A program made the translations under genes and the position numbers. The notes beneath the pieces were generated by a model. That model had not been told where the DNA came from. It searched no databases and worked only from the letters and a program-made list of their open reading frames with translations. Positions 1 through 12,396 of a DNA stretch of 64,000 nt are shown one piece after another; the first letter of the stretch is position 1, and each line of letters begins with the position of its first letter. Origin of the DNA: an uncultured Lentisphaeria bacterium. GTDB taxonomy: Bacteria; Verrucomicrobiota; Lentisphaeria; Victivallales; UBA1829. The DNA is taken from contig CASDPB010000131.1 of the NCBI GenBank assembly GCA_949282305.1, forward strand, positions 1 through 64,000, in the 5' to 3' direction.

Positions 1-500
1 ACGGTCTTTCCCCAGTGGTGACACTTCCAGCCGCCGTCCTCGAAGAGGTAGTAATAGTCCACGTCGAAATGCTTTTTGAGTTCGTCGAACTCCCGCGCGA
101 GAAACATGACCGGCTTCGGTTCCGCGATGCGGCAGTCCCGATGCACGTAGACGCATACCCCCGGCTCCGGCGACGCGAAAGAGTGATCCGGCGTCTTCGG
201 CGTGATCTCCTTTTCAATCTCGATGAGATCGCCTTCATTGAGCAGTTCCAGAACCCGCTTTTCATCCCGGTAATGCTGCTGCAGAATGCGTCCGCAGGTT
301 CGCGTCCATCCGAAACGGTGAACCTTGATTCCGAGGTAACTTCCGTTGTCCATCCGGAGGGCGATGCAACCGGCGTATTCGATGCCCGGTTCGCGGTCAT
401 ACTTTGTGTTCCGCGCCCGTCCGAATCTGGCGCCGCCCCGGTATCGGGGCATTTCGCCCGGGAAAAACGGACGGATTTTTCTTGACCTGTATGGTTTCAT
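1..500 (-). CDS. Phage-associated hypothetical protein (partial, runs off the left edge)
   Basis: An open frame of about 166 codons begins at the ATG at 500 and continues past the left edge, so the C-terminus is missing. Its residues about 45-95 have the pattern of a widespread phage protein family of unknown function. The pattern is a small strand carrying MDNGSYLGIKVHRFG, then a helix with YRDEKRVLELLNEGDLIEI. It is followed by an HRD motif and a C-terminal YYYLFEDGGWKCHHW segment, where family members have YLF-DG-W-C. The start overlaps the stop of the upstream gene as ATGA, which indicates translational coupling in a leftward phage operon. Function is unknown. Confidence 0.75.
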   Translation of the reverse strand, partial: MKPYRSRKIRPFFPGEMPRYRGGARFGRARNTKYDREPGIEYAGCIALRMDNGSYLGIKVHRFGWTRTCGRILQQHYRDEKRVLELLNEGDLIEIEKEITPKTPDHSFASPEPGVCVYVHRDCRIAEPKPVMFLAREFDELKKHFDVDYYYLFEDGGWKCHHWGKT

Positions 501-835
501 TTCTCTTTTCCTCCATCTTCAGTTTTCATCATGCGGTCAAACATCACCAGCGCGGCGCATTTTTCCATGACTTCGACATCTTCGGCAAGCAACTTTATCA
601 GCATCAATCTGCCGGAGCATCTTGCGCCCGGATAATTTCCAGTCATAACCGCCTGCTTGCCCCTTTTATCTCCGGAAAATTCCGTCGTGCAGAAAAACGG
701 AATACTCCTTTTTTGGCAAAGTTTTAAAACCTCCATCAAACGGGGCTCGATCTCCTTATGAAAAAACTCCGTTTCATCAAAAACCGGGTTCGTCACGGTT
801 CCTGATTCAATCACGATTTCCTGTTCCTTGTCCAT
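497..835 (-). CDS. Hypothetical phage-region protein
   Basis: A protein of 112 residues with no family I recognise. It is acidic at the N-terminus and mixed alpha/beta by appearance, with a central SIPFFCTTEFSGDKRG segment and a C-terminal helix that ends in charged residues. The ATG at 835 is preferred over the one at 841 because an AAGGA ribosome site lies seven bases before it but only one base before the other. It overlaps the upstream gene by about 30 bases and its stop overlaps the next start as ATGA, so it belongs to the same leftward unit. Confidence 0.55.
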   Translation of the reverse strand: MDKEQEIVIESGTVTNPVFDETEFFHKEIEPRLMEVLKLCQKRSIPFFCTTEFSGDKRGKQAVMTGNYPGARCSGRLMLIKLLAEDVEVMEKCAALVMFDRMMKTEDGGKEK

Positions 836-1205
836 TTGCATTTCCTTTTTGCTGATGTATTACGTTGTAGTTTGTGCACTTCCGCAGCGCCGTCACGAAT
901 TCCGGCGCATTGCATTGCCGGTGAAACTGTTCATAGCTCATTGCCGGCATGTCCGGCTTTTTCCTTATCCGGCTTTTGACCATCTGCGTGATTTCTCTGC
1001 TTCTGATGAGCCGCGGCAGGTCCAGGATTCTGGCACCGAGCCGCGAGTTGATCCGCCGCTGTGTGCCGTCCATTACCTGGTATAAAATTTTGATATTGAC
1101 GCCGCAGATCACGGACAGTGCCGTAATCGTGTATTCAGTCCGCGCTTCCCGGAGTGCATTTCGCATTTCCTGCGTAATCGGCACCGTTGTCGGAACGTAT
1201 GGCAT
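807..1205 (-). CDS. Small DNA-binding-like phage protein
   Basis: A basic protein of 132 residues. Residues about 10-75 look like a helix-turn-helix region: a helix with TQEMRNALREARTEY, then ITALSVICGVNIKILYQVM, then a basic stretch RRINSRLGARILDLPRLI. This suggests a phage transcription factor, but I cannot name the family. A GAAGG ribosome site sits eight bases before the ATG. The gene follows the octamer-repeat spacer and overlaps the next gene downstream. It could equally be a small structural protein; the DNA-binding call is inferred from helix spacing and charge only. Confidence 0.5.
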   Translation of the reverse strand: MPYVPTTVPITQEMRNALREARTEYTITALSVICGVNIKILYQVMDGTQRRINSRLGARILDLPRLIRSREITQMVKSRIRKKPDMPAMSYEQFHRQCNAPEFVTALRKCTNYNVIHQQKGNANGQGTGNRD

Positions 1206-1280
1206 TTTTTTTACCTTCAGTTAAGAGTTAAGAAAAAATTAGTAATTAGCAATGAGTAATGAGCAATGAGAATGCAGGTT

Positions 1281-1297
1281 AAAGGGCGCAGCCCTTT
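1281..1297. repeat. Small perfect hairpin (REP-like)
   Basis: AAAGGGC and GCCCTTT flank a three-base loop, with no T-run on either side. It lies in the spacer between two leftward phage genes and next to degenerate repeats of AGCAATGAG at about 1245-1270. It may be a repetitive extragenic element or an RNA-processing site; termination is not supported. Confidence 0.4.
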
Positions 1298-1304
1298 CCA
1301 TACC

Positions 1305-1412
1305 TCGCAATCTCGCTACTTCGCACTCTCGCTACTTCGCAATCTCGCAATCTTGCAATCTCGCAATCTGATTCAAGTCTCGCAATCTCGCAATCTTACT
1401 ATCTCGCAATCT
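1305..1412. repeat. Degenerate octamer tandem array, unit TCTCGCAA
   Basis: About twelve copies of an 8-base unit (TCTCGCAA with variants CTTCGCTA, TCTTGCAA and TCTTACTA) fill the spacer between two leftward phage genes, interrupted once by GATTCAAG. The same unit recurs at 1565-1601 and, within coding sequence, near 1963-1984. The spacer 1206-1427 contains no gene that I can support. Confidence 0.8.
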
Positions 1413-1427
1413 GAATTGTGTCTCCTT

Positions 1428-1547
1428 TCAAAATTTGTGTGATTTTTTGATTGCTTGAATATCGAACGCCCGTCCGACAAGCGCGACTGCCAAAATCGCC
1501 AGCGCCGGCGCAAGGAACGGCCAGCAAAGTTTCATAAATTCATTCAT
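1428..1547 (-). CDS. Tiny single-span membrane protein
   Basis: A protein of 39 residues: a short polar N-terminus (MNEFMKL), one hydrophobic segment from about residue 8 to 28 rich in Ala, Leu and Val, and a basic tail ending KKSHKF. The ATG at 1547 is chosen because a strong AAAGGAG site lies eight bases upstream. Longer in-frame starts would read through an octamer repeat array. In a phage context a holin or an accessory lysis protein is possible, but the sequence alone does not decide this. It sits between two octamer-repeat arrays. Confidence 0.5.
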   Translation of the reverse strand: MNEFMKLCWPFLAPALAILAVALVGRAFDIQAIKKSHKF

Positions 1548-1564
1548 GTTCGTTTCTCCTTTTA

Positions 1565-1601
1565 TCTCGCAATCTCGCAACTTCGCTATCTTGCTATCTT
1601 G
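1565..1601. repeat. Second octamer array (TCTCGCAA unit)
   Basis: Four to five copies of the same 8-base unit as the larger array lie immediately upstream of the ribosome site of the tiny membrane protein and downstream of the preceding gene's stop. The shared unit and position between genes argue for expansion of one repeat family inside the element. Confidence 0.7.
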
Positions 1602-1687
1602 TAAAGTCGGCATACTGACAGCGTTTGCGCCTCCGGGTATGCCAGCCGGAGGGGAGTTCCTATCCGGGAAGTCCGGACCCGACACTG

Positions 1688-1945
1688 TCACGCGGGCTGG
1701 TCTGGGCGTGTTTTGACGTTTTGCTTTCCAGACTTGAAATTATTGATGACGTTGTCGAGGTCCATTCTGTCCACTCCTTTTTCAACGCCGGGATAATCCC
1801 GGACCAGCGCCGCATATTCCGGCACCGCCATAAACTGCGCCGGCGTCAGCTTGACGTATGCAGATGCCAGCGAAATCGGAAGGATTCTTCCCCACTTCTC
1901 CCCGAGCAGACGTGCTACTGTTCTGTCTCCGAATCCGTTTTTCAT
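1688..1945 (-). CDS. Hypothetical phage-region protein
   Basis: A protein of 85 residues with no recognised domain. It starts MKNGFGDRTVARLLGEKWGRI, carries a PAQFMAVPEYAALVRDYPGVEKGVDRMD segment typical of a small helical protein, and ends in a polar tail. An AAGGA site precedes the ATG by about ten bases. The start overlaps the upstream stop as ATGA, suggesting translational coupling with the small membrane-protein frame before it. It belongs to the leftward phage unit. No function is proposed. Confidence 0.55.
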   Translation of the reverse strand: MKNGFGDRTVARLLGEKWGRILPISLASAYVKLTPAQFMAVPEYAALVRDYPGVEKGVDRMDLDNVINNFKSGKQNVKTRPDQPA

Positions 1946-2142
1946 ATCATCGATCCTTTCTCATTTTTCGCAATCTCACTATCTGTTTTCCGTTTTATGT
2001 TTTCCCGGTGAACCCAGTAAAGCTGCCTGTATTCGTAATTTGCGTTTTCCAGTCTTTTGTGGTATCTTAAATACTGGATCAGTTCTGACGTCCATAAACC
2101 AATCACAAATGCAAAGGTAAAAAGAAGAATGCAGGGAAAAAT
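1942..2142 (-). CDS. Possible small membrane protein with unclear start
   Basis: A frame ending at 1942 encodes one hydrophobic span (FPCILLFTFAFVIGLW) and then a basic, tyrosine-rich tail (YHKRLENANYEYRQLYWVHREN). Its stop overlaps the next start as ATGA, which favours a real gene. No ATG opens it before it runs antisense to the zinc-ribbon gene on the other strand. ATT at 2142, or GTG inside the span, are the only nearby candidates, so the 5' end given here is a guess. A frameshift at the start is also possible. Confidence 0.35.
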   Translation of the reverse strand: MFPCILLFTFAFVIGLWTSELIQYLRYHKRLENANYEYRQLYWVHRENIKRKTDSEIAKNEKGSMI

Positions 2143-2148
2143 GAGCTC

Positions 2149-2586
2149 ATGGATACGGTAAACTTTATTATCGCCGTTTGTTCTGTTTTCTTTTCCGGGC
2201 TGACTTCCGGCGTTGCCGTCGGCTTGTTCCTGTCGCCCAGCTACACCGCGTTCCGCCAGTGCAAGTTCACCGCCGGACGCGAAGACCGGCTGCGCAAGGA
2301 GCAGGAGCGCAAAGCCGAGGCTCAGCGCAGACTGGAGGCCTGCCGCCTTCGGAAAACGGAGAAACGCATTGCATACGGCATTTATTGGGACGGGGAGGGA
2401 ACCCCCTACTGTCCTGTCTGCAAAACAGCAATGCACCCTTTTTCCAAAGTTGACGGAACCAATAAATGGCATTCCGGATGTTATGCCTGCGAGGCGGCGA
2501 ACCCCGGAAGCGGACACCGATACTGTCATCTCCCGGATTCCCGCGATCTGATGACGGAAATCAAAAAACGTTTTGAAGAACATTGA
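2149..2586 (+). CDS. Membrane-anchored zinc-ribbon-like protein
   Basis: A protein of 145 residues. Residues 5-28 form one membrane span. Residues about 40-72 are a highly charged coiled-coil-like stretch (REDRLRKEQERKAEAQRRL). Residues about 85-125 contain CPVC, then a second Cys pair in SGCYACE, which fits a four-cysteine zinc site, followed by HRYCHLPD. The family is unknown to me. It reads against the surrounding leftward phage genes, so it may be a lysogenic-conversion or moron gene. A weak AGGGA site precedes the ATG by about a dozen bases. Confidence 0.55.
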   Translation: MDTVNFIIAVCSVFFSGLTSGVAVGLFLSPSYTAFRQCKFTAGREDRLRKEQERKAEAQRRLEACRLRKTEKRIAYGIYWDGEGTPYCPVCKTAMHPFSKVDGTNKWHSGCYACEAANPGSGHRYCHLPDSRDLMTEIKKRFEEH

Positions 2587-2857
2587 ATCTTCCCCTATCG
2601 TAAGTCCATACATAAGACTACCATTGCTGCTTCTTTTGGGCATAACAGTTTTAACAGGAGCAGTTGCTCTGCATGGCAGACTAAAATTCCTGCGGGATAC
2701 CAGGGACGCATTACGGAAGGAGTATCTGTACCAGATAAAAACCGAAGTAAGCGAACCCAGAAATGCTGTCGTTGCCCGGAAGATGCAGTATGTTTCCTTT
2801 CTTTTCTCCGTTGTCTTTCTGATTCTGGCGGCGCTGGAGGCCGCGGAAAAGTCTTGA
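2573..2857 (+). CDS. Possible two-span membrane protein (TTG start)
   Basis: A frame of 94 codons opening with TTG inside the end of the zinc-ribbon gene. It encodes two hydrophobic segments, one at residues about 15-35 (RLPLLLLLGITVLTGAVAL) and one at 70-88 (VSFLFSVVFLILAAL), separated by a basic linker. No ribosome site is visible, so expression would depend on coupling to the gene before it. It lies almost fully antisense to a leftward frame at 2595-3011. Probably only one of the two is a full-length gene. Confidence 0.35.
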   Translation: MKNIESSPIVSPYIRLPLLLLLGITVLTGAVALHGRLKFLRDTRDALRKEYLYQIKTEVSEPRNAVVARKMQYVSFLFSVVFLILAALEAAEKS

Positions 2858-3011
2858 ACAAGTCCACGATTTCAAAGATGTTCTTGTCCCGCAAATCCCA
2901 CCAGGGAACATCCATGGGAGGACTGTAATAACATCCCGAACGCGGAAACACATTCAATCCCTCCTGCATTCCGCGAATCATCGGTATTTTTCCCCGTTTC
3001 CGCTTTTTCAT
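2595..3011 (-). CDS. Hypothetical phage-region protein, 3' part uncertain
   Basis: A frame of 138 codons whose ATG overlaps the stop of the ribbon-helix-helix gene as ATGA, a strong sign that at least its start is used. The N-terminal 55 residues (basic start, then SGCYYSPPMDVPWWDLRDKN and a helix FEIVDLFKTF) look like a real protein. The rest is Arg/Ser-rich and antisense to a plausible membrane-protein frame, so the true gene may be shorter or carry a frameshift. No family is recognised. Confidence 0.4.
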   Translation of the reverse strand: MKKRKRGKIPMIRGMQEGLNVFPRSGCYYSPPMDVPWWDLRDKNIFEIVDLFKTFPRPPAPPESERQRRKERKHTASSGQRQHFWVRLLRFLSGTDTPSVMRPWYPAGILVCHAEQLLLLKLLCPKEAAMVVLCMDLR

Positions 3012-3184
3012 TTCACCGCCACTGTCTCATTATCGCTTTTCTGATATTTTTTATTGCAATAAGACATCTTCATGCGAATCAATGCGGCTACCGACATTCG
3101 CATATCTTTCGCCTCCCTGATGATATTGAGCTTAAATTGCGTATCTAATGGAACAATGATTGATGTGTCATACTGTTGATTCAT
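3008..3184 (-). CDS. Small ribbon-helix-helix-like DNA-binding protein
   Basis: A 58-residue protein. Residues 6-13 form a strand (DTSIIVPL), followed by a helix (DTQFKLNIIREAKDM) and a second helix beginning RMSVAALIRMKM, which is the layout of the Arc/CopG ribbon-helix-helix fold. It is the first gene of the leftward phage unit, driven by a near-perfect promoter that overlaps an inverted-repeat operator facing the repressor gene. That position is the one held by Cro or an early regulator in temperate phages. An AAAGGA site precedes the ATG. The Cro-like role is an inference. Confidence 0.6.
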   Translation of the reverse strand: MNQQYDTSIIVPLDTQFKLNIIREAKDMRMSVAALIRMKMSYCNKKYQKSDNETVAVK

Positions 3185-3212
3185 TGGTTATCCTTTCCTT
3201 TTGTTCTGTAAT

Positions 3213-3240
3213 ATTATAATCGCTTTTCTGATATTGTCAA
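3213..3240 (-). promoter_or_regulatory. Leftward sigma-70-type promoter
   Basis: On the minus strand, TTGACA (3235-3240) and TATAAT (3213-3218) are separated by 16 bases, a consensus match that reads toward the ribbon-helix-helix gene. Its -35 box and spacer overlap the inverted-repeat operator at 3224-3257. Confidence 0.8.
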
Positions 3241-3257
3241 GAGACAAAAATCAGAAA
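3224..3257. promoter_or_regulatory. Inverted-repeat operator between divergent phage promoters
   Basis: TTTTCTGAT and ATCAGAAAA form perfect 9-base half sites 16 bases apart. One arm with its flank (17 bases, ATCGCTTTTCTGATATT, 3219-3235) is repeated exactly inside the ribbon-helix-helix gene at 3032-3048. It is a likely binding site of the CI-like repressor, the small regulator, or both; the assignment is inferred from position. Confidence 0.65.
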
Positions 3258-3281
3258 AACTTTATTTTTTATAAAAAAACT

Positions 3282-3310
3282 ATTGACTTATTCAACAAGA
3301 AGATATATAA
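3282..3310 (+). promoter_or_regulatory. Rightward promoter of the repressor gene
   Basis: TTGACT (3282-3287) and TATAAT (3305-3310) with a 17-base spacer lie 28 bases before the repressor start. The operator lies about 25 bases upstream of the -35 box. Confidence 0.8.
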
Positions 3311-3337
3311 TAAATAAGAGAAAAAAGGAGTCAGATA

Positions 3338-4069
3338 ATGAGAACAATCGGTCAGAATATAAGACGGCTGCGGGAAGAAAACTCGTGGTCTCAAGCGTTT
3401 ATGGCGAAAAAGCTCAAGGTCAGTCAGTCATCATTTTCACAATGGGAAAATGACGAATATAAGCCAAAGTTTGAACAGCTGCGCAAACTCTCAAATGTAT
3501 TCAACGTAAGGATATCCGAGATTGATGAGTCCATAGCATTGAATGGAGATGCGGTTCTTGCTTCGGCAAATGACCTGCGCGCGGTTCCGCTGTTGACAAC
3601 AGCGCAGGCAAAAGAACTTGATGTATCCCGACCTTTCGGCGGAATTGAAATCGAAGATGGGGAAATGGTTTTTTTTGCAAGACCGAAAGAAGGAGATTTC
3701 GCGGTTACTGTAAACGGACATTCCATGGAACCATGGTATCCGGTAGGAACACGTGTTCTAGTCGGATTCAAAGAAATACCAAAACACGGAGACAGAGTTG
3801 TTGTGAATGTCCCATATCAAAAAGAACTTCTTTTTAAAGTCTACTTGGATTTTGGGGCAAAGTTTGCCTTGTTTTCCATCAATCAAAAAGACGGTATTGA
3901 GCCTGTCGTCATAGATAAGATGGACCGTGATGCCTATTATTGGGTTTATCCGATTAAGGAATCAATCAGGAATGAATCTGATGTGGATGCCGCGATGAAA
4001 AAACATCAAATCCGTCCTTGCTATGAAGACTGGGTCAGAGATTATAAAAGAGGTCTTAATGAAGCATAA
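3338..4069 (+). CDS. CI/LexA-like phage repressor (XRE helix-turn-helix plus S24 peptidase)
   Basis: A protein of 243 residues. Residues 4-62 are an XRE helix-turn-helix (IGQNIRRLREENSWSQAFMA, then VSQSSFSQWEN). Residues about 100-205 are an S24 LexA-type peptidase-like domain with the serine in GHSMEP (S129) and the partner lysine in LLFKVY (K167). It would bind the operator just upstream and hold the element dormant, with activation through RecA-stimulated self-cleavage. I do not see a clear Ala-Gly or Cys-Gly cleavage site in the linker, so induction could be weak or work differently. It has its own promoter and overlaps the next gene by 11 bases. Confidence 0.88.
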   Translation: MRTIGQNIRRLREENSWSQAFMAKKLKVSQSSFSQWENDEYKPKFEQLRKLSNVFNVRISEIDESIALNGDAVLASANDLRAVPLLTTAQAKELDVSRPFGGIEIEDGEMVFFARPKEGDFAVTVNGHSMEPWYPVGTRVLVGFKEIPKHGDRVVVNVPYQKELLFKVYLDFGAKFALFSINQKDGIEPVVIDKMDRDAYYWVYPIKESIRNESDVDAAMKKHQIRPCYEDWVRDYKRGLNEA

Positions 4070-4289
4070 AATCTTATGGCTTGTCATTCTGCTGGAAACG
4101 GCGGCACTGATTGCTGCCGGGATATTCATTTCCCGGCACATGGCGTGTTATCACGATCCTGGCAAACCCCGCGTCTATTATTACGGACCCCGCGGCGGCA
4201 AGTATTATATTGACGCCTCCGGACGGAAAAAATACGTGAAGCAAAAAAAAGCAGACAAGGCGGAAAACAAACTGGAAGAGCTTGACTGA
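4059..4289 (+). CDS. Small membrane protein with a GPRGG-type basic motif
   Basis: A protein of 76 residues when started at the ATG at 4059, which has an AGAGG site six bases upstream and overlaps the repressor's end. Residues 5-24 are one hydrophobic span. Residues about 33-62 contain YYYGPRGGKYYIDASGRKKYV, a pattern seen in small basic phage and viral adaptor-like proteins, followed by a charged tail. It is cotranscribed with the repressor and precedes the integrase, so it is probably expressed in the dormant state. Its role is unknown. Confidence 0.6.
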   Translation: MKHKILWLVILLETAALIAAGIFISRHMACYHDPGKPRVYYYGPRGGKYYIDASGRKKYVKQKKADKAENKLEELD

Positions 4290-4343
4290 CAATAACAAGT
4301 ATGAAATACTGTATACGTGAATTGAATTTAAAGGAGTGTTGCC

Positions 4344-5474
4344 ATGTTGAAGAAAAGCGGTAAAACCTGGTATGTCCGACTCCAGATGGACGGAAAGGAA
4401 CGCTGGATTTCCACACATCGGACGTCGGAACGGGAGGCACGGAAAGCCGCCGCCGTCATTCTGACTGCAGTCAAAAGGGAACGCGCGGAAAAGACCATCA
4501 CCTCCGCCCTGCTGGACGTCGTGAAGCAAATGGCGCGGCAGGAGCTTTCCGAAACGGAAACAAAAACACGTCTTGCCGACGTGGAGCGCCTTGCGCAGTT
4601 GGAGGCGCTTCAGATTGTCGATGCTCTTCTTCCGGCGCCGCCTTTGCTTGCCTCTGACCTCTGGGACAAATATATGTCCGCCGGGCCGAAGCTGAAAGCG
4701 TCTACCCTGAAAACGAAACGTCAGCGTTTCCATGTTTTTGCGAAATGGGCGGGGGATTCCGATATGAAAAACCTGAAAGAAACGGATTGCCGGAAATTCC
4801 TTGAGTCACTCAATACAGAAAAAAGCCAGACGGTCAACAATTACATCTCCGAGCTGTCCAGCGTATGGAAACAGTCGCCGCAGTTGAACAACCCCTGGGG
4901 CGAACACCTCCGGCGGAAATCGAACGTCGTGCATAAACTGCCGCTTCTGCGTGATGAAATCCGGAAAATTCTTGATTACTGCACCGTCCGGGATCTTCAG
5001 TTCTGGCATTTTGCCGTGATTCTCGACTATTATACCGGCTTGCGGTTGAAAGACGTGGTCTATTTCTCAACGTTCAATATCAAGGACGGTTATATTTCGC
5101 TGGTTCCTCAAAAGACGGTTCGGACTGTCCGGAAAGTCTCAATCCCGGTTCCGGACGTTCTGCAGACCGAAATTGACAAAGTGAAACCTGCTGACGGAAG
5201 CCCGGTGTTTTTCCCTGACATGGTAAGGCGTTACGAAAAAGACCGCGCGCTTGTCTCCGGCGAATTCCAGGACATCCTGAAAAAGACCGGCGTTTACCGT
5301 CCGGGCATAGGCTTCCATTCCATCCGCCATACTTTTGTGACATTGGCAATGGACGCCGACATCGACATAAAAAACATCCAGGCGGCGGTCGGCCATACCA
5401 GCATAGCGCTGACGGAGGGCACATATTACCACGGTATCAGGAAAGCGGATTTAAGCGGCTATCCTGCGTTGTAA
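4344..5474 (+). CDS. int: Tyrosine recombinase, phage integrase type
   Basis: A protein of 376 residues. The N-terminal 60 residues are an arm-type DNA-binding region (KTWYVRLQMDGKERWIST). Residues about 100-190 form the core-binding SAM-like domain. The catalytic domain spans about 195-370, with Arg in TGLRLKD (R234), His and Arg in HSIRHT (H325, R328), His in VGHTS (H351) and the nucleophile in EGTYYHG (Y361 or Y362). An AAAGGAG site precedes the ATG. Its position at the edge of the element, next to the nikR junction, fits an integrase flanked by its attachment site. Confidence 0.95.
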   Translation: MLKKSGKTWYVRLQMDGKERWISTHRTSEREARKAAAVILTAVKRERAEKTITSALLDVVKQMARQELSETETKTRLADVERLAQLEALQIVDALLPAPPLLASDLWDKYMSAGPKLKASTLKTKRQRFHVFAKWAGDSDMKNLKETDCRKFLESLNTEKSQTVNNYISELSSVWKQSPQLNNPWGEHLRRKSNVVHKLPLLRDEIRKILDYCTVRDLQFWHFAVILDYYTGLRLKDVVYFSTFNIKDGYISLVPQKTVRTVRKVSIPVPDVLQTEIDKVKPADGSPVFFPDMVRRYEKDRALVSGEFQDILKKTGVYRPGIGFHSIRHTFVTLAMDADIDIKNIQAAVGHTSIALTEGTYYHGIRKADLSGYPAL

Positions 5475-5505
5475 AACAACCCCCTGTTTTACTCCTGTTT
5501 TTGTA

Positions 5506-5907
5506 ATGCACCGCTTGTGTAAGTTAAAATATTTGAGTTCAAATTATGATTTTACAACAATAAAAAACGGTTATGAAAACCGTTCGGAATATGTCCGTGA
5601 TCTGATCCGCGACCGGATTGCCCGCAGACAATGGAGTTCCGGCGGGGAAGTGATCGGCACACTGACGCTGATCTACAATCATCACCGGCGCGGCCTGACG
5701 GAGAAGCTGGTGGATCTGCAGCATCATTGCCATTGCCATGTCCTGGCTTCGACGCACGTTCACCTGAGCCATGAGCTCTGCGCGGAGATGATTATGATGA
5801 AGGGGCGCGGGAATGAGATTGAAGAGCTTGCCAATGCGATGAAGCGTCTGAAAGGAGTGCTCAAAGCCGAGCTTGCGGCGGGAGCTGCGGACGAATCCAT
5901 GTCCTGA
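5506..5907 (+). CDS. nikR: Nickel-responsive regulator NikR with an abnormal N-terminus
   Basis: From GYENRSEYVRDLIRDRI onward (residue 22) this is a clear NikR. The metal-binding set His73, His84, His86 and Cys92 lies in LQHHC and THVHLSHELC, matching E. coli His76, His87, His89 and Cys95. NikR is a nickel-sensing repressor or activator with a ribbon-helix-helix DNA-binding head. Here the first 21 residues (MHRLCKLKYLSSN...) do not resemble the strand and first helix, and no ribosome site precedes the ATG. The integrase gene ends 31 bases upstream. I infer that integration separated nikR from its native 5' end, so it is probably inactive while the element is present, although the length is close to normal. 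Confidence 0.8.
   Translation: MHRLCKLKYLSSNYDFTTIKNGYENRSEYVRDLIRDRIARRQWSSGGEVIGTLTLIYNHHRRGLTEKLVDLQHHCHCHVLASTHVHLSHELCAEMIMMKGRGNEIEELANAMKRLKGVLKAELAAGAADESMS
5567..5583. other. Candidate attachment-site core at nikR
   Basis: ACGGTT and AACCGT form a perfect 6-base inverted repeat around five bases, right at the codons where NikR homology begins (NGYENRS). Tyrosine recombinases usually cut between short inverted core arms, so this is a good candidate crossover site. The matching left junction is outside the window, so the call rests on position and symmetry. Confidence 0.45.
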
Positions 5908-5931
5908 ATTGTTTTTTTTTTGACTTTATAG

Positions 5932-5956
5932 TATTACGAAAATAAAAAACGTAATA
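5932..5956. promoter_or_regulatory. Probable NikR operator
   Basis: TATTACG-N11-CGTAATA is a perfect 7-base inverted repeat. It has the same half-site length and 11-base gap as the Helicobacter pylori NikR consensus (TATTATT-N11-AATAATA), with two changed positions per half. It lies 25 bases after the nikR stop and 85 bases before the next gene, which begins the HmuTUVS-like operon. Confidence 0.65.
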
Positions 5957-5973
5957 AATTTTCGGAAAGTGAT

Positions 5974-6040: not shown

Positions 6041-6889
6041 ATGAATACAGGAAAGGCGACGGAAAGATTCACCGTTTCGCATGAGCCGGAAAGACGGGGA
6101 TTCACCCTGGTGGAGCTCCTTGTTGTGATTGCGGTCATTGCGATTCTTGCAGGGATGCTTCTGCCGGCACTCGGCGCGGCGCGGGAAAAGGCAAGGAGCA
6201 TTCTCTGTCTGAACAATCTGAAGCAGATCGGAGTTGCCAACAACATGTATGCCGACGATAACGGCGACCGCAGCGTCCCCTATACGACGGTTCCCGGCAC
6301 CGGGCGGCAGAAACTCGGCGACTACTGGTGCGGAGTGCTGACCTCCGACGGATATGACCTGACCGACAGTCCGCTGCTGGGGACTTACTATGGAAATACG
6401 ACCGGAGTGATGGTCTGCCCGTCCTCCTATGAGACGATCACCGACATTACAAAGGCGGAAAACGGGGGCGGATACGGCTACAATGCCAAATGGTTCGGCG
6501 GATATGACTGGTACCGCGGCGAGGACATTCCCTACTACAAACGTTCTTCCATGCGGAACCTCGGCAATACCATTGTGTTCGGCGACTGCGCAAGTTCCGG
6601 GAAATCCAGTTCCGCCTACGATACCGCCCGGTATACGGCATACATGTACGGCAAGGTCATGCCGGACGGCGTTACGCAATGGTCGAATAAAACCAGTGGA
6701 ACGGCGCATTTCCGCCATGCCAGACGCAGCAATGTCATCTGGGGGGACGGACATGCCAGCAGCGAGCCGATCGGAACTCTGAATATGAGCCATCCCTGCG
6801 CCATTGCCGCCAAAGTCGGTTTTGTCGGTTCCGCGACGACGGATCTGTACAATCCGATGCGCACCGACGATGAATGCGCCGATATGTAA
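6041..6889 (+). CDS. Pseudopilin (prepilin-type signal, H-x9-DG type) leading the nickel-box operon
   Basis: A protein of 282 residues. After a 19-residue polar leader comes [25 protein letters not shown], the class III signal with Gly-Phe cleavage site and Glu5, followed by an amphipathic helix ([18 protein letters not shown]). The C-terminal [16 protein letters not shown] is the motif of the large pseudopilin family of Planctomycetes and Lentisphaerae. It would be processed by a prepilin peptidase and built into a type II secretion-like pseudopilus or held in the inner membrane. An AAGGAG site precedes the ATG by ten bases. It is the first gene after the NikR box and lies 20 bases before the transporter gene, so it is probably nickel-regulated too. 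Confidence 0.85.
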
Positions 6890-6909
6890 TCTGCGGAGAA
6901 TTTGTCTTC

Positions 6910-7689
6910 ATGCCTGAACTGAAACCTGAAATCATCGGTCTGCTGATCGGATTGAGTTTTTCCATTGCGGTGTTTGCATTCAAAACTGCGGTCGGGGAGT
7001 TTTATTTCCTGACCGGGGATTTCCGGCGGAAGGAAAAATATCTTTTTCTTGCCGTGTCCACGATCGTTTACGGAATTCTTTTCGCCGCGGCATTTGCGGT
7101 CAATTCCCTGCTGCGGGAAAAATCGCTGTTTCTGATTCAGGACGGCGGTTTCTTTCAGGCGGGTGTTGTGCTTCATCTGATTGTCGCCGCGGGGTTCTTC
7201 CTGTGGGGAGTGCTTCTTCTGACGGCGGAAAAAGAGCATCACAGGACGCGCTGCTGGTGGCTTCTGGTGATTCCGTGTCCGGTCTGCGCTTCTGCGATTT
7301 TTCTTGCATCGGCATTTGCGGAGCTGCTTCTGCCGGAGTCCGGATGGCTGGTCCGCCTGTTTGTCCCCGGCGTGTTTTTTCTGGTCGATTTCTCCGTTCT
7401 CGGGATTCTTTCCGCCGCGGTTCACAAGGGCGGTCTTGAGGCGCGCGGTCTGACGGGAAGGCTGATGCTGTTTGTCGGGCTTTACTTTGCAGGGCTTCTC
7501 CTGCTGGTTCCGAATTTCGACCGCGTGGAACAGATGTATCGCGTTGTGTCTGGAAACGAGAGCGGACGCACTGCGGATTTCCGTCTTCTTGTTTTTCTTG
7601 GAGGGTTCCTGATTGCCGGCTGGCTGTTTCAGGTTTATGGGAATGCAAAACAACAGAGATGCGGCTCAGGTCGCGGAGGAGTGGAATAA
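6910..7689 (+). CDS. DUF2162/HmuT-like polytopic membrane protein
   Basis: A protein of 259 residues with about seven hydrophobic segments. The ATG at 6910 begins MPELKPEIIGLLIG. Its most telling feature is IPCPVCASAI near residue 120, a Cys-Pro-x-Cys inside a membrane segment that is characteristic of DUF2162 putative transporters. Members sit beside MotA/ExbB, DUF2149 and CobN genes in methanogens, and the equivalent gene is hmuT in Bacteroidetes haem operons. It is likely the inner-membrane translocation component for a metal or metallo-tetrapyrrole, with the cysteines as a relay. Its stop overlaps the next start as TAATG. Confidence 0.75.
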   Translation: MPELKPEIIGLLIGLSFSIAVFAFKTAVGEFYFLTGDFRRKEKYLFLAVSTIVYGILFAAAFAVNSLLREKSLFLIQDGGFFQAGVVLHLIVAAGFFLWGVLLLTAEKEHHRTRCWWLLVIPCPVCASAIFLASAFAELLLPESGWLVRLFVPGVFFLVDFSVLGILSAAVHKGGLEARGLTGRLMLFVGLYFAGLLLLVPNFDRVEQMYRVVSGNESGRTADFRLLVFLGGFLIAGWLFQVYGNAKQQRCGSGRGGVE

Positions 7690-8252
7690 TGGTGTTTTTC
7701 GATCTGCTGAAAACGTTTATTTTTCTGGTGTCAAGCGTATTGCTTTACCCTGTGCTGATTCTGCTGAGCGCTTCGGCGGTCTATATCATCTGGACTGCCG
7801 GACGTTTTCTCGGGGAGTGGATGGAACGTGCGCGGTGCGGCAGTTTTGATCCGGTGAAGGATTCTCCGCGCGGATTCCGCTTCCCGCTTCCGGTCTGCCG
7901 CTACCGGGATGCGCTGGTGCGGCTGGATGTGCATGACGAGGCGGCGGTTGCGTATCTGATGCGGCAGGCCATTGCCGAGCGGCAGGGGTCTCTGGAGAAA
8001 TACAGGATGCTGATCCGCCTGGACCCGGCGCTCGGGCTTCTGGGAACCCTGATACCCATGGGAACGGCGCTGGCAAGCGTCGGAAAAGGGGAGATCAATC
8101 TGGTCAGCGCGGAGCTTGTCGTGGCTTTCACCACAACGGTGGTCGGGCTGGCTGTCGGGAGCATCGCCTTTCTGATTTACTCCGTGAAACGCCGCTGGGT
8201 GGCTTCGGACATCCGGCAGATTGAGTATATTACGGAGGTTATGACGCGATGA
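7689..8252 (+). CDS. MotA/TolQ/ExbB proton-channel family protein (HmuU-like)
   Basis: A protein of 187 residues with an N-terminal membrane segment (residues 8-32) and a C-terminal pair within LDPALGLLGTLIPMGTAL and VVAFTTTVVGLAVGSIAFLIYSV. These are the signature of the MotA/TolQ/ExbB family. It would form the proton-driven stator with the DUF2149 protein encoded next. A GGAGGAG site precedes the ATG at 7689, which overlaps the upstream stop. The next gene overlaps by four bases (ATGA). No TonB or outer-membrane receptor gene is in the window, so the energised partner is probably elsewhere. Confidence 0.85.
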   Translation: MVFFDLLKTFIFLVSSVLLYPVLILLSASAVYIIWTAGRFLGEWMERARCGSFDPVKDSPRGFRFPLPVCRYRDALVRLDVHDEAAVAYLMRQAIAERQGSLEKYRMLIRLDPALGLLGTLIPMGTALASVGKGEINLVSAELVVAFTTTVVGLAVGSIAFLIYSVKRRWVASDIRQIEYITEVMTR

Positions 8253-8572
8253 GATTCATGCGGAATGCGGAACATGGGGAGGAGGGATTCGATGACGACC
8301 CGATGTCTTCGGTCGGGAATCTCTTCGATATTGCCCTGGTGTTTATCGTTGCCCTGCTGTTTGCGCTGATGGCGACGTTCGGCAAAGAGTTTTTTGAAGG
8401 AAAGACTGCGGCAAAGGTGGATTCCTCCGGAAAAATCGAGATCATCACGCGGCAGGGCAGGGAGGTGAAGTCCCTGAAACAGTCGGATGAAAAAGCCGAA
8501 GGCAGAGGCGTGCGTCTTGGAACGGCATACCGTCTGGAGGACGGCACCACGATTTATGTTCCGGAGGAGTGA
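8249..8572 (+). CDS. DUF2149 ExbD-like protein (HmuV-like)
   Basis: A protein of 107 residues. An acidic start is followed by DDPMSSVGNLFDIALVFIVALLFALM, a single span with an aspartate in the position used by ExbD and MotB to carry protons. A small periplasmic domain follows. This is the DUF2149 pattern, which travels with MotA/ExbB, DUF2162 and CobN-like genes. It overlaps both neighbours (ATGA at its start, TGATG at its end), so the four proteins are probably made in fixed proportion. The role as stator partner is inferred from family and context. Confidence 0.8.
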   Translation: MRFMRNAEHGEEGFDDDPMSSVGNLFDIALVFIVALLFALMATFGKEFFEGKTAAKVDSSGKIEIITRQGREVKSLKQSDEKAEGRGVRLGTAYRLEDGTTIYVPEE

Positions 8573-11500
8573 TGAAAAATCTGCTGTTTCTGCTGGCCGT
8601 TTCCTGTTTTTCGCTTTTCGCCGCGGAGAAGCGTGTTCTTTATCTGCCGGGGGAATCGAATGCCGCGGCCGCGGTGCGTGCGTTCCGCGACATGAAACTG
8701 CCGGAGACGATCCGTTTTCTCATGATTCCGGATGCTTCGGACCGCCGGCGCCTTGAAGCGGAAATCGCCGCTGCCGATCTGATCGTTGCAAACGGGCTTG
8801 TCGTCGAATTCCGCGATGCCATCGCCGCCTCGGCGCGTCTTGGAAAGACGAAAATCTATCTGCTGGGAACGGAGCATCTCCTGCCGAGGATTCCGCAGAA
8901 ACTGTTGGGGCACATCAACTTTCCGATGGAGAAAACCGTGGCGGAATACCGTAATAATCTTTCTCCGCGGAATATGCGGAACCTGATTCTTTATCTGATT
9001 CACAAGGAGCTTGATCCCTCTGTGACTTTCGAGCCGCCGCAGGTCAGGGCGAAAGCGGGGCTGATCGACCCGTTTACGGGAAAATCCTATGACTCTTACC
9101 GCGCCTACCGGAAAGAGCGTCCCGAAACGGGCGGAACGGGGCGTGCGGTCGTGATGATTTATTCCGCCTCGAATACACGCGGAGAGACAGAGCTTCTGCG
9201 CCCGCTGGCGGAAGCGCTGGAAAAGCGCGGCATCGAGACGACTTATGCGTTCGGCGATGAAGTGACGCTGATCCGTAATTTTCTGCTGGACGGGAATGGC
9301 AGGTCCCGTTTCGATATTGCAATTGCATTTTCCTTCAAGTTCAAAGCCGGACTTGGCGAGGCGCTGAGGAAGGCGCTTGCCGATCTGGATATTCCCGTCA
9401 TCAATGCGCTGAAACTCTATCGGCAGACCTCGGGCGAATGGGAGAAGTCCGTGCAGGGAATGAACAATTTTTCCGTGGCTTTCGCCATGATGGCGCCGGA
9501 GGTGTCGGGACTCATTGAGCCTACGCTTCTTACCGGGCGGAGAATGGAAAACGGAGTGGTGAAGGAATTTCCGATGTCCGGCAACATGGAGCGTCTGGCG
9601 GACCGCGCGGCGAAATGGGTTTCCCTGCGGAAGAAGGCGAACCGGGAAAAGCGTGTGGCGCTGTTTTTCTATCATCCCGAGGGGGGTAGACAGTCGATCG
9701 GGGCAAGTTACCTGAATGTTCCGCGCTCCATCGTCAATATTGTCCGCGCGCTTCACCGGAACGGCTATCATTCGGGCGGACTCGAAACATTGGATGAAAA
9801 AGCGTTGACGGAACGTCTGATTGCCGGTGTGCGCAATGTCGGAAGCTGGGCGCCGGGAGAGCTGGACGAACTGCTGAAGGCGGGAGAGTATGCGGAAGTC
9901 CCGTTTGAGCAGTATCGGCGCTGGTTTTCGGAACTTCCGCAGGCGTTTCAGGATTCCGTGGTTCAGGAGTGGGGGAAGCCGGAAGATTCAACGATCATGA
10001 CGAAGAACGGCGGATTCATAATTCCTGTCCTTCTCCGCGGAAATCTGGCTGTCCTGCCGGAGCCGATGCGCGGATACCTGGGCGACGTCAACAAGCTCTA
10101 TCATTCCAGAACACTTGCCCCGCCTCATCAGTATGTGGCGGTTTACCTCTACCTGCGGCATGTGTTCCGCGCCGACGCCGTGATCCATCTCGGACGGCAT
10201 GGTTCGCAGGAATGGCTTCCCGGAAAACAGCTCGGGCTTTCCGACGCCTGCGCTCCGGCGGTTCTCGGCGGCGACATGGTAAGTCTTTATCCCTATATTT
10301 CCGACGGCATAGGGGAGGGCATTCAGGTGAAACGGCGCGGGGCGGGAGTGATTCTTTCCCATTTGACGCCTGTGCTCGGCAGTCCCGGAAAACAGTCCGG
10401 GCAACGGAAACTTGCCGCTCTGATTCAGGATTATCAGAGTGCTGATCCCGGCAGGAAAGAGGCAATTTTCGCGGAATTGAAGGAAGCCGCGGAATCCGGC
10501 GGATTTCTCCGTGATGCGGGAATTGCGGAGCTGAACACGGAAAATCTTCACCGGCTGCAGCATTATCTGGAAGACCTGCTTCAGTCCGCGCTTCCGTTCG
10601 GGCTGCACAGCTACGGCGCTTCCCCGGGCGGGAAAGAGCTGGAACGTATGCTGGAGCTTTCCGGAAAGAAGGGAAAAGAGCGGGAGCGTCTGCGCTCTCT
10701 GCTGCTGCGTTCCGGTTCCGATGAACTGGATGCCCTGCTTGCCGGTCTCGCGGGGCGCTTCATTCCGCCGGGACTTTCCGGCGATCCTGTCCGTTCCCCT
10801 GAATCCCTGCCGGTCGGGCGCAACTTCTATGGATTTGACCCAGATAAATTTCCGACGCGCTCCGCTTTTGAAAAGGCTGGGAAAGCGGCGGAAAAACTGA
10901 TTGCGGATTACCGTGCGGCGCATGACGGGGCTTATCCCGAAAATACGGCGATTGTGCTGTGGGCAGGGGAGAGCGTGCGGACAGGCGGGCTCAACGAGAG
11001 CATTCTTCTGCATCTGATCGGCATGGAACCGGAGTGGGATGAAAACGGCAGAATCCGCGGTTTCCGCCCGGTTCCCGCCGCGCGATTGAACCGTCCGCGC
11101 CTGGATGTGACCGTGACGACGTCGGGAGCTTACCGGGATCAGTTTGCCGGACTGCTGGCGAAACTGGATGCGGCGCAGAGAGCGGCCGCGAAGCTGACGG
11201 ATGTGGAGAACTTTCTTGCCGCTCATACCCGGGATTCCGTCAGGGAGCTGATGCGCCGGGGCATGAGCGAAGCGGAGGCGGTCCGGCAGGCTTCGCGCCG
11301 TATTTATTCTCCTGCGCCGGGAACCTACGGCGCGGGCGTCAGCCGGCTGGCGGGAGCTTCCGGCGTGTGGGAATCGAACACGGAAATTGCGCAGGTCTAT
11401 CTGAACCGGATGAGCCACGGCGTCGATGCCGACGGGACATTCGGGGAAGGCGGAGCCGGATTGAGAGAGCAGCTGAAAACCGCCTCGATTGTTCTGCATT

Positions 11501-12396
11501 CCCGCAGTTCCACGCTTTACGGCGTGACGGATATTGACGACATGTTCCAGTATCTCGGCGGCCTTTCCCTTGCCGTCCGCACGCAGAGCGGCAAGACGCC
11601 GGAACAGCTGATCCTCGACAACCGGAATGCGTCGTCCGTGCGTCTGACTTCGCTGAAGCGCTTTATCGCGGCGGAACTCCGGACACGCTCCCTGAATCCC
11701 GAATGGATTGCCGCCCAGCAGAATGAGAACTATGCGGGGGCGCGGATGATTGCACGGACGATTGACAACCTCTGGGGCTGGCAGTCGGTGACGCCGGAGA
11801 ATATTGACCCGTCTCAATGGAATGAGCTGTATGAAGTTTATCTGAAGGACCGTTACCGGCTGGGGCTCCGCAAGTTTTTTCAGCGGGAGAACGCCTGGGC
11901 GGAACAGTCGGTTTCCGCACGGATGCTGGAAGCGGTCCGGAAGGAGTTCTGGGATGCTCCGCGGCAGATCAGGACGGAACTGGCGCGGAACTATGCGCAG
12001 AGCGTGATCGACAACGGAGTCGCCTGCTGCGACCACACCTGCAACAATCCGCTTCTGCATCAGATGGTAGTCAACCTGATCTCCGTTCCCGGAGTGATGA
12101 CGCCGGAGAGCGTCGCGAAATTCCAGGTCGCAGTGGAACGGGCGGCGGCGCGGACGCTTTCGGAACAGATACGGGAGCGCCGCAGTCAGCAGGCGGGCTT
12201 GAAACAGTCTGCGCCGCAGCAGGAGAGCGCACCCCGGCGGAGTCCGGAACTGCATCCGGTCAGGGGGTATAAAATGAAACAGGCGCACGACGAAACAACG
12301 CGGATGAGTTCTTCGGGTATCCGCTGGGCATCCATTCTGGCATTGCTGGGGTTGATTGCGGTGTTTCTTGCCGGGACGCGACAGGAAAAACAATAG
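8572..12396 (+). CDS. Exported, membrane-anchored CobN/Mg-chelatase-like protein (HmuS-like)
   Basis: A protein of 1274 residues. A signal peptide (KNLLFLLAVSCFSLFAAE) opens it, and a C-terminal span (WASILALLGLIAVFLAG) closes it, so the chelatase body should face the periplasm. The CobN core is clear in HLGRHGSQEWLPGKQLGLSD, GEGIQVKRRGAGVILSHLTP and the late GTYGAGVSRLAG block. A cysteine motif, CCDHTCNN, lies near residue 1150. CobN normally inserts cobalt into a corrinoid in the cytoplasm; exported relatives (HmuS) act on haem in uptake operons. Here the NikR box suggests a nickel or cobalt substrate. It overlaps the DUF2149 gene as TGATG. Confidence 0.85.
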   Translation: MKNLLFLLAVSCFSLFAAEKRVLYLPGESNAAAAVRAFRDMKLPETIRFLMIPDASDRRRLEAEIAAADLIVANGLVVEFRDAIAASARLGKTKIYLLGTEHLLPRIPQKLLGHINFPMEKTVAEYRNNLSPRNMRNLILYLIHKELDPSVTFEPPQVRAKAGLIDPFTGKSYDSYRAYRKERPETGGTGRAVVMIYSASNTRGETELLRPLAEALEKRGIETTYAFGDEVTLIRNFLLDGNGRSRFDIAIAFSFKFKAGLGEALRKALADLDIPVINALKLYRQTSGEWEKSVQGMNNFSVAFAMMAPEVSGLIEPTLLTGRRMENGVVKEFPMSGNMERLADRAAKWVSLRKKANREKRVALFFYHPEGGRQSIGASYLNVPRSIVNIVRALHRNGYHSGGLETLDEKALTERLIAGVRNVGSWAPGELDELLKAGEYAEVPFEQYRRWFSELPQAFQDSVVQEWGKPEDSTIMTKNGGFIIPVLLRGNLAVLPEPMRGYLGDVNKLYHSRTLAPPHQYVAVYLYLRHVFRADAVIHLGRHGSQEWLPGKQLGLSDACAPAVLGGDMVSLYPYISDGIGEGIQVKRRGAGVILSHLTPVLGSPGKQSGQRKLAALIQDYQSADPGRKEAIFAELKEAAESGGFLRDAGIAELNTENLHRLQHYLEDLLQSALPFGLHSYGASPGGKELERMLELSGKKGKERERLRSLLLRSGSDELDALLAGLAGRFIPPGLSGDPVRSPESLPVGRNFYGFDPDKFPTRSAFEKAGKAAEKLIADYRAAHDGAYPENTAIVLWAGESVRTGGLNESILLHLIGMEPEWDENGRIRGFRPVPAARLNRPRLDVTVTTSGAYRDQFAGLLAKLDAAQRAAAKLTDVENFLAAHTRDSVRELMRRGMSEAEAVRQASRRIYSPAPGTYGAGVSRLAGASGVWESNTEIAQVYLNRMSHGVDADGTFGEGGAGLREQLKTASIVLHSRSSTLYGVTDIDDMFQYLGGLSLAVRTQSGKTPEQLILDNRNASSVRLTSLKRFIAAELRTRSLNPEWIAAQQNENYAGARMIARTIDNLWGWQSVTPENIDPSQWNELYEVYLKDRYRLGLRKFFQRENAWAEQSVSARMLEAVRKEFWDAPRQIRTELARNYAQSVIDNGVACCDHTCNNPLLHQMVVNLISVPGVMTPESVAKFQVAVERAAARTLSEQIRERRSQQAGLKQSAPQQESAPRRSPELHPVRGYKMKQAHDETTRMSSSGIRWASILALLGLIAVFLAGTRQEKQ

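Follow-up and report, generated by a model that had tools for sequence, protein, structure and literature searches.

A tRNA-Ser-type tailed prophage integrated within nikR, probably as a secondary site, in an uncultured Lentisphaeria bacterium

The window, a 64,000-nucleotide stretch at the start of contig C131 in a 4.36-Mb, 132-contig genome of an uncultured Lentisphaeria bacterium, contains the right part of a prophage (prophage B) and, directly beyond it, the 3′ part of the nickel regulator gene nikR. Prophage B is very probably a tRNA-Ser-type tailed prophage that integrated into nikR as a secondary site, with the DNA binding of NikR most likely lost. It represents a clean natural example of a tRNA-targeting phage diverted into a host regulator while a related phage in the same genome occupies its primary site. 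All genes and prophage features given below by window coordinates lie on the forward strand.

Prophage B occupies positions 1 to 5566 of the window and has sequence in common with prophage A on contig C40. Since base 1 of the window is also the first base of C131, which starts inside the prophage, the left end of the element cannot be read here and lies instead on contig C78. The tyrosine integrase gene (4344 to 5474) terminates with a stop codon at 5472-5474, and the initial annotation correctly counted 31 bases from there to the next ATG at 5506, where the apparent nikR frame opens. The first 21 codons of this frame had been described as unlike NikR, and they are indeed a false N-terminus (5506 to 5567) made of prophage-end sequence that is also found beside the prophage A integrase in tRNA-Ser. 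NikR homology starts abruptly, from GYENRSEYVRD onward, with the nikR 3′ fragment (5568 to 5907), which comprises the second half of the ribbon-helix-helix (RHH) domain and a nickel-binding domain as intact as first described (NikR_C, PF08753, E 1.6e-25), the sole Pfam domain in the window frame. The boundary carries the previously noted 6-base inverted repeat (ACGGTT, 5567-5572; AACCGT, 5578-5583) within a 5-7-5 inverted repeat, ACGGT-TATGAAA-ACCGT (5567 to 5583). This is the attR core of the prophage B/nikR junction, common to attL (C78:18089-18106); the part common to both junctions is 5568-5584. The repeat is native nikR sequence and was not brought by the element. In relatives without the element, intact nikR runs through the insertion site, and the intact gene of the same-genus genome G016 (protein MTKLVRISLSLEESLLEQLASMQKKDGYENRSEYIRD, DNA ACGGTTATGAAAACCGTTCGGAATA) contains the repeat, which therefore belongs to nikR.

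Searching the genome that contains the window, by sequence pattern and with the N-terminal protein sequence, located the missing head of nikR. The nikR 5′ fragment with a shared core that had been predicted beyond the left edge is present at C78:18013-18108, where it reads MSKLVRLSLSLEDTLLDKLSALVRDGGYENR, followed by an immediate stop. It ends in the 17-bp core CGGTTATGAAAACCGTT, with which the 3′ fragment in the window also opens at 5568, and is directly followed by a tRNA-Ser 3′ half and then by left-arm sequence. Joined at the core, the head and the window fragment yield an intact, in-frame NikR of 138 residues with RHH_1 and NikR_C domains. Integration into nikR is thus as originally proposed, but the position at its extreme 5′ end is not: the cut falls after about codon 31, within the RHH domain (RHH_1, residues 6-45 of the joined protein). 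Genome-wide, NikR is represented by a single head and a single tail, and no other NikR was found in this genome. A search for ACGGTYWYRAAAACCGTT with at most 1 mismatch returned 4 matches in the genome, two at the nikR junctions and two at tRNA-Ser junctions; the reversed control had 0. A tRNA-Ser(TGA) called by ARAGORN at L032:2561-2652 (G000:C78:18060-18151) was rejected as a chimera of nikR coding sequence (5′ half) and the prophage-borne tRNA-Ser 3′ half; the call is an annotation trap that shows how well nikR imitates a tRNA arm.

The integrase of prophage B (Pfam PF00589, E 1.5e-14, phrog_1) has all of the TGLR, HxxR, GH and Y motifs, and the prophage also encodes a CI-like repressor (HTH_3 and Peptidase_S24, 3338 to 4069). 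A 36-bp direct repeat (5472 to 5507), a candidate arm-type integrase site, recurs without a difference at the left end (C78:18196-18231). Contig C95, which overlaps C77 and C78 (the left ends of prophages A and B, respectively) by exactly 141 identical bases each, carries genes for a GpA-type terminase, a lambda-type portal and a capsid protein belonging to the A or B copy, and these genes identify prophages A and B as tailed phages. No relatives of the integrase were found in IMG/VR or GTDB220 genome contigs, nor was there any match to the prophage arm repeat or the terminase in IMG/VR. The spaces between prophage genes contain many short, nearly identical repeats of the CAATCTCGCAATCTCGCTA type, in the window at 1243-1600, on C78 and C95, and on several contigs.

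Prophage A, which extends from C77 to C40, has an integrase 91% identical at the protein level to that of prophage B. On C77, a complete tRNA-Ser(CGA) runs into a left arm of the same kind as that of prophage B, and on C40 the right arm ends in a displaced tRNA-Ser 3′ half; the tRNA-Ser(CGA) primary site is occupied by prophage A in this genome. The C40 remnant was also considered as tRNA-Leu(CAA) and rejected, as the intact tRNA on C77 is tRNA-Ser(CGA) and the apparent CAA is a spacer variant, CTCAAAA. The attP of prophage B itself carries the 3′ half of tRNA-Ser(CGA) from the anticodon loop onward, and an integrase of 36% identity from another family of the order likewise has a tRNA-Ser 3′ half after it. 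These tRNA-Ser halves point to the tRNA-Ser anticodon arm as the usual and, judged from the sequences, most likely ancestral target of the integrase lineage. A 50%-identical integrase fragment adjoins the end of a different tRNA, so target choice varies within the wider family. Integration at the anticodon-arm sub-site of tRNA genes is known from class A of Islander (PMC4383910) and from mycobacteriophage sites (PMC10865867). As in those elements, the tyrosine integrase adjoins the att end, the crossover is centred on the anticodon loop, and the element's tRNA 3′ half restores the tRNA, exactly as prophage A does. Unlike them, prophage B has its similar attP in a protein-coding gene, so that nikR is broken and nothing is restored.

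The CI repressors of prophages A and B are only 28% identical, for which reason the two are probably heteroimmune and able to coexist. We infer that they compete for the tRNA site and that its occupancy caused the retargeting to nikR. In a relative, a contig starts exactly at the 3′ CCA end of tRNA-Ser(CGA) (G016:C18:1-90), as if an unassembled element were present there.

The diversion into nikR is attributable to the DNA of the conserved GYENR motif, which is shaped like a tRNA anticodon arm. The GYENR codons (GGT TAT GAA AAC CGT) together with the preceding GC form a 5-7-5 core, GCGGT-TATGAAA-ACCGT in the reconstructed gene, against GCGGT-CTCGAAA-ACCGT in the tRNA. Both 5-bp arms are identical, and 3 of the 17 bases differ, all within the first three bases of the 7-bp spacer. 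The pattern GCGGTNNNNAAAACCGT (GCGGT-N4-AAA-ACCGT), in which both arms and the AAA were picked after the sites were known, occurs at 3 places in the genome, namely tRNA-Ser(CGA), tRNA-Cys(GCA) and nikR, the sole protein-coding copy; the reversed control gave 0. A looser test that tolerated at most 3 mismatches with the tRNA site returned 13 places versus 3 in the control, so likeness alone would not single out nikR. Given that attP carries a tRNA-Ser half, and that the insertion is at an imperfect match away from the primary site, nikR is best read, on the sequence evidence, as a secondary site of a tRNA-Ser phage. In the proposed course of events, a temperate tailed phage whose integrase usually acts at the tRNA-Ser(CGA) anticodon arm would have entered nikR, where the GYENR codons happen to match the 5-7-5 core, while a related prophage with a different repressor held the primary site.

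A close parallel is ICEBs1 of Bacillus subtilis, which uses a 17-bp site in tRNA-Leu with 5-bp repeats and a 7-bp spacer, and which enters coding genes with 2-3 mismatches when the primary site is missing (PMC3715440). Prophage B resembles it in its 17-bp, 5-7-5 tRNA-derived site and in its coding-gene secondary site with 3 mismatches. The two differ in that the ICEBs1 primary site was deleted by experimenters, whereas here another prophage occupies it.

The donor and target spacers are legible at each of the four junctions, which provides a concrete test of attachment-site change and reversibility. Where attP and attB spacers differ and are left unrepaired, strand exchange produces unlike spacers at the two junctions (PMC3715440). 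The ends of prophage A (CTCGAAA on the left, CTCAAAA on the right) are unlike, as expected for an unrepaired mismatch. Prophage B instead carries the nikR spacer TATGAAA at both ends, whereas mismatched spacers leave the ends of ICEBs1 different. The unlike ends of a secondary insertion are therefore not seen in prophage B, and like ends are unexpected for a first-time secondary insertion without repair, which counts against the secondary-site reading. Repair of the mismatch toward nikR would account for this, as would an attP that already had the nikR spacer, acquired for instance when the phage had passed through nikR before. If the spacer had been captured by attP, nikR could now be a regular target of prophage B, with an attachment site in the course of changing. 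We consider this unlikely: TATGAAA at both B ends speaks for it, given that the prophage A ends differ, but mismatch repair gives the same outcome, the remainder of attP is still tRNA-Ser, and only one case is at hand.

Integration of prophage B at a secondary site leaves the question of reversibility, which the initial annotation had raised in proposing an excision-controlled switch. That the element splits nikR agrees with the proposal; the switching part of it gained no such backing. The Listeria comK prophage is an example of active lysogeny. The staphylococcal Sa3int phages in hlb likewise represent active lysogeny, or a phage regulatory switch (PMC6597384). As with hlb and comK, prophage B breaks a host gene that would be whole again after precise excision, since the joined flanks form an intact frame. 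It differs in interrupting a metal-responsive regulator, and it shows neither a sign of conditional excision in the assembly nor, in the genomes sampled, a second case at this site. Regulated excision that turns NikR on and off in this manner seems improbable, slightly more so than a change of regular target. The intact integrase motifs and CI repressor frame, the match between the two end spacers, expected to help excision, and the uneroded nickel domain are all consistent with it. Against these stand an assembly with no empty-site contig (joined nikR), no excisionase recognised among the proteins scanned, and an attP built for tRNA-Ser. The roughly 150 NikR matches in 138 of the 388 genomes sampled from the phylum (no genome being from the same species) likewise yielded no second integrase-split nikR. 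Excision from secondary sites is, moreover, commonly impaired, and that of ICEBs1 fell to 4-15% of normal or was undetectable (PMC3715440). Less probable again is a combination of the two readings, in which prophage B captured TATGAAA and integrates and excises at nikR with full spacer homology, which would make it both a site-moving phage and a reversible nickel switch. Precise excision would rebuild nikR exactly, and its regulation is a possibility only. Elsewhere in the phylum, NikR genes lacking the RHH head occur at G138:C29:33854-34201 (L122) and G197:C18:4513-4833 (L123), and G138 also has a full NikR; they were rejected as parallels, with neither an integrase nor a tRNA nearby. Among the matches listed for nikR and prophage in the literature, no paper mentions nikR.

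With prophage B integrated at its secondary site, one side carries the nikR start, as 31 codons and an immediate stop fused to the phage tRNA-Ser half, and the other carries the second RHH helix and the metal domain without a start of their own. Because the cut falls inside the RHH domain, neither piece should bind DNA, and the known fold of the NikR family makes it a strong inference that NikR no longer binds DNA in the lysogen. It is very unlikely that the 3′ fragment serves as a stand-alone nickel-binding protein or modulator from the phage-derived start at 5506. An open frame does continue from 5506 into the intact nickel domain, and a weak promoter-like match (9/12) lies at 5501-5530, but the second hexamer of this match ends past the ATG, a ribosome site is not apparent, and the genome has no full-length NikR on which a modulator could act.

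An assembly or binning artefact, in which repeated prophage sequence produced chimeric contigs, is the least probable explanation of the nikR junctions: both contigs end in repeated prophage sequence with 141-base overlaps, but the sole nikR is cut at an identical base pair in two independent junctions, whose nikR sides rejoin in frame. The junction in the window is also 5.5 kb away from the end of its contig and is reached through sequence specific to B, whose CI shares 28% identity with that of A. The assembly leaves C78 and C131 as separate contigs, with the prophage middle collapsed together with that of prophage A, and their physical pairing is for this reason deduced. Recombination between A and B could have rearranged the flanks. 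The nikR left flank on C78 gave no nucleotide match in G016 or G018, so synteny does not confirm the pairing.

The NikR target that the initial annotation placed next to nikR corresponds to a predicted NikR-box-like operator, GTATTAC-N13-GTAATAA (5931 to 5957), the sole one found in the genome. Its layout is that of the delta-proteobacterial NikR signal, GTGTTAC-N13/14-GTAACAC (PMC545781). The box is kept in all three genomes of the genus that have nikR and is absent from the one that lacks it, and the locus shows the usual association of a NikR regulon, a 27-28 bp operator beside nickel-related genes that co-occurs with nikR. The gene run behind the box (6041 to 12396) encodes, by Pfam, a prepilin-like DUF1559 protein, a DUF2162 protein, a MotA/ExbB-like protein, a DUF2149 protein and a CobN-like protein, predicted to act in metal uptake and plausibly an energised uptake set. 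Nickel control of this run has most likely been lost in the lysogen, where the genes beside nikR would escape regulation; if NikR represses them, they would be permanently on, and unregulated nickel uptake is predicted. The prepilin-like gene follows the NikR box in the window and in close relatives (L067, L068, L071). The uptake genes behind it vary: the window and L067 have the ExbB/DUF2149/CobN-like set, and L068 and L071 have, by eye, what looks like an ABC-type importer. Across these genomes the transporter seems to be swapped behind a NikR box that stays in place.
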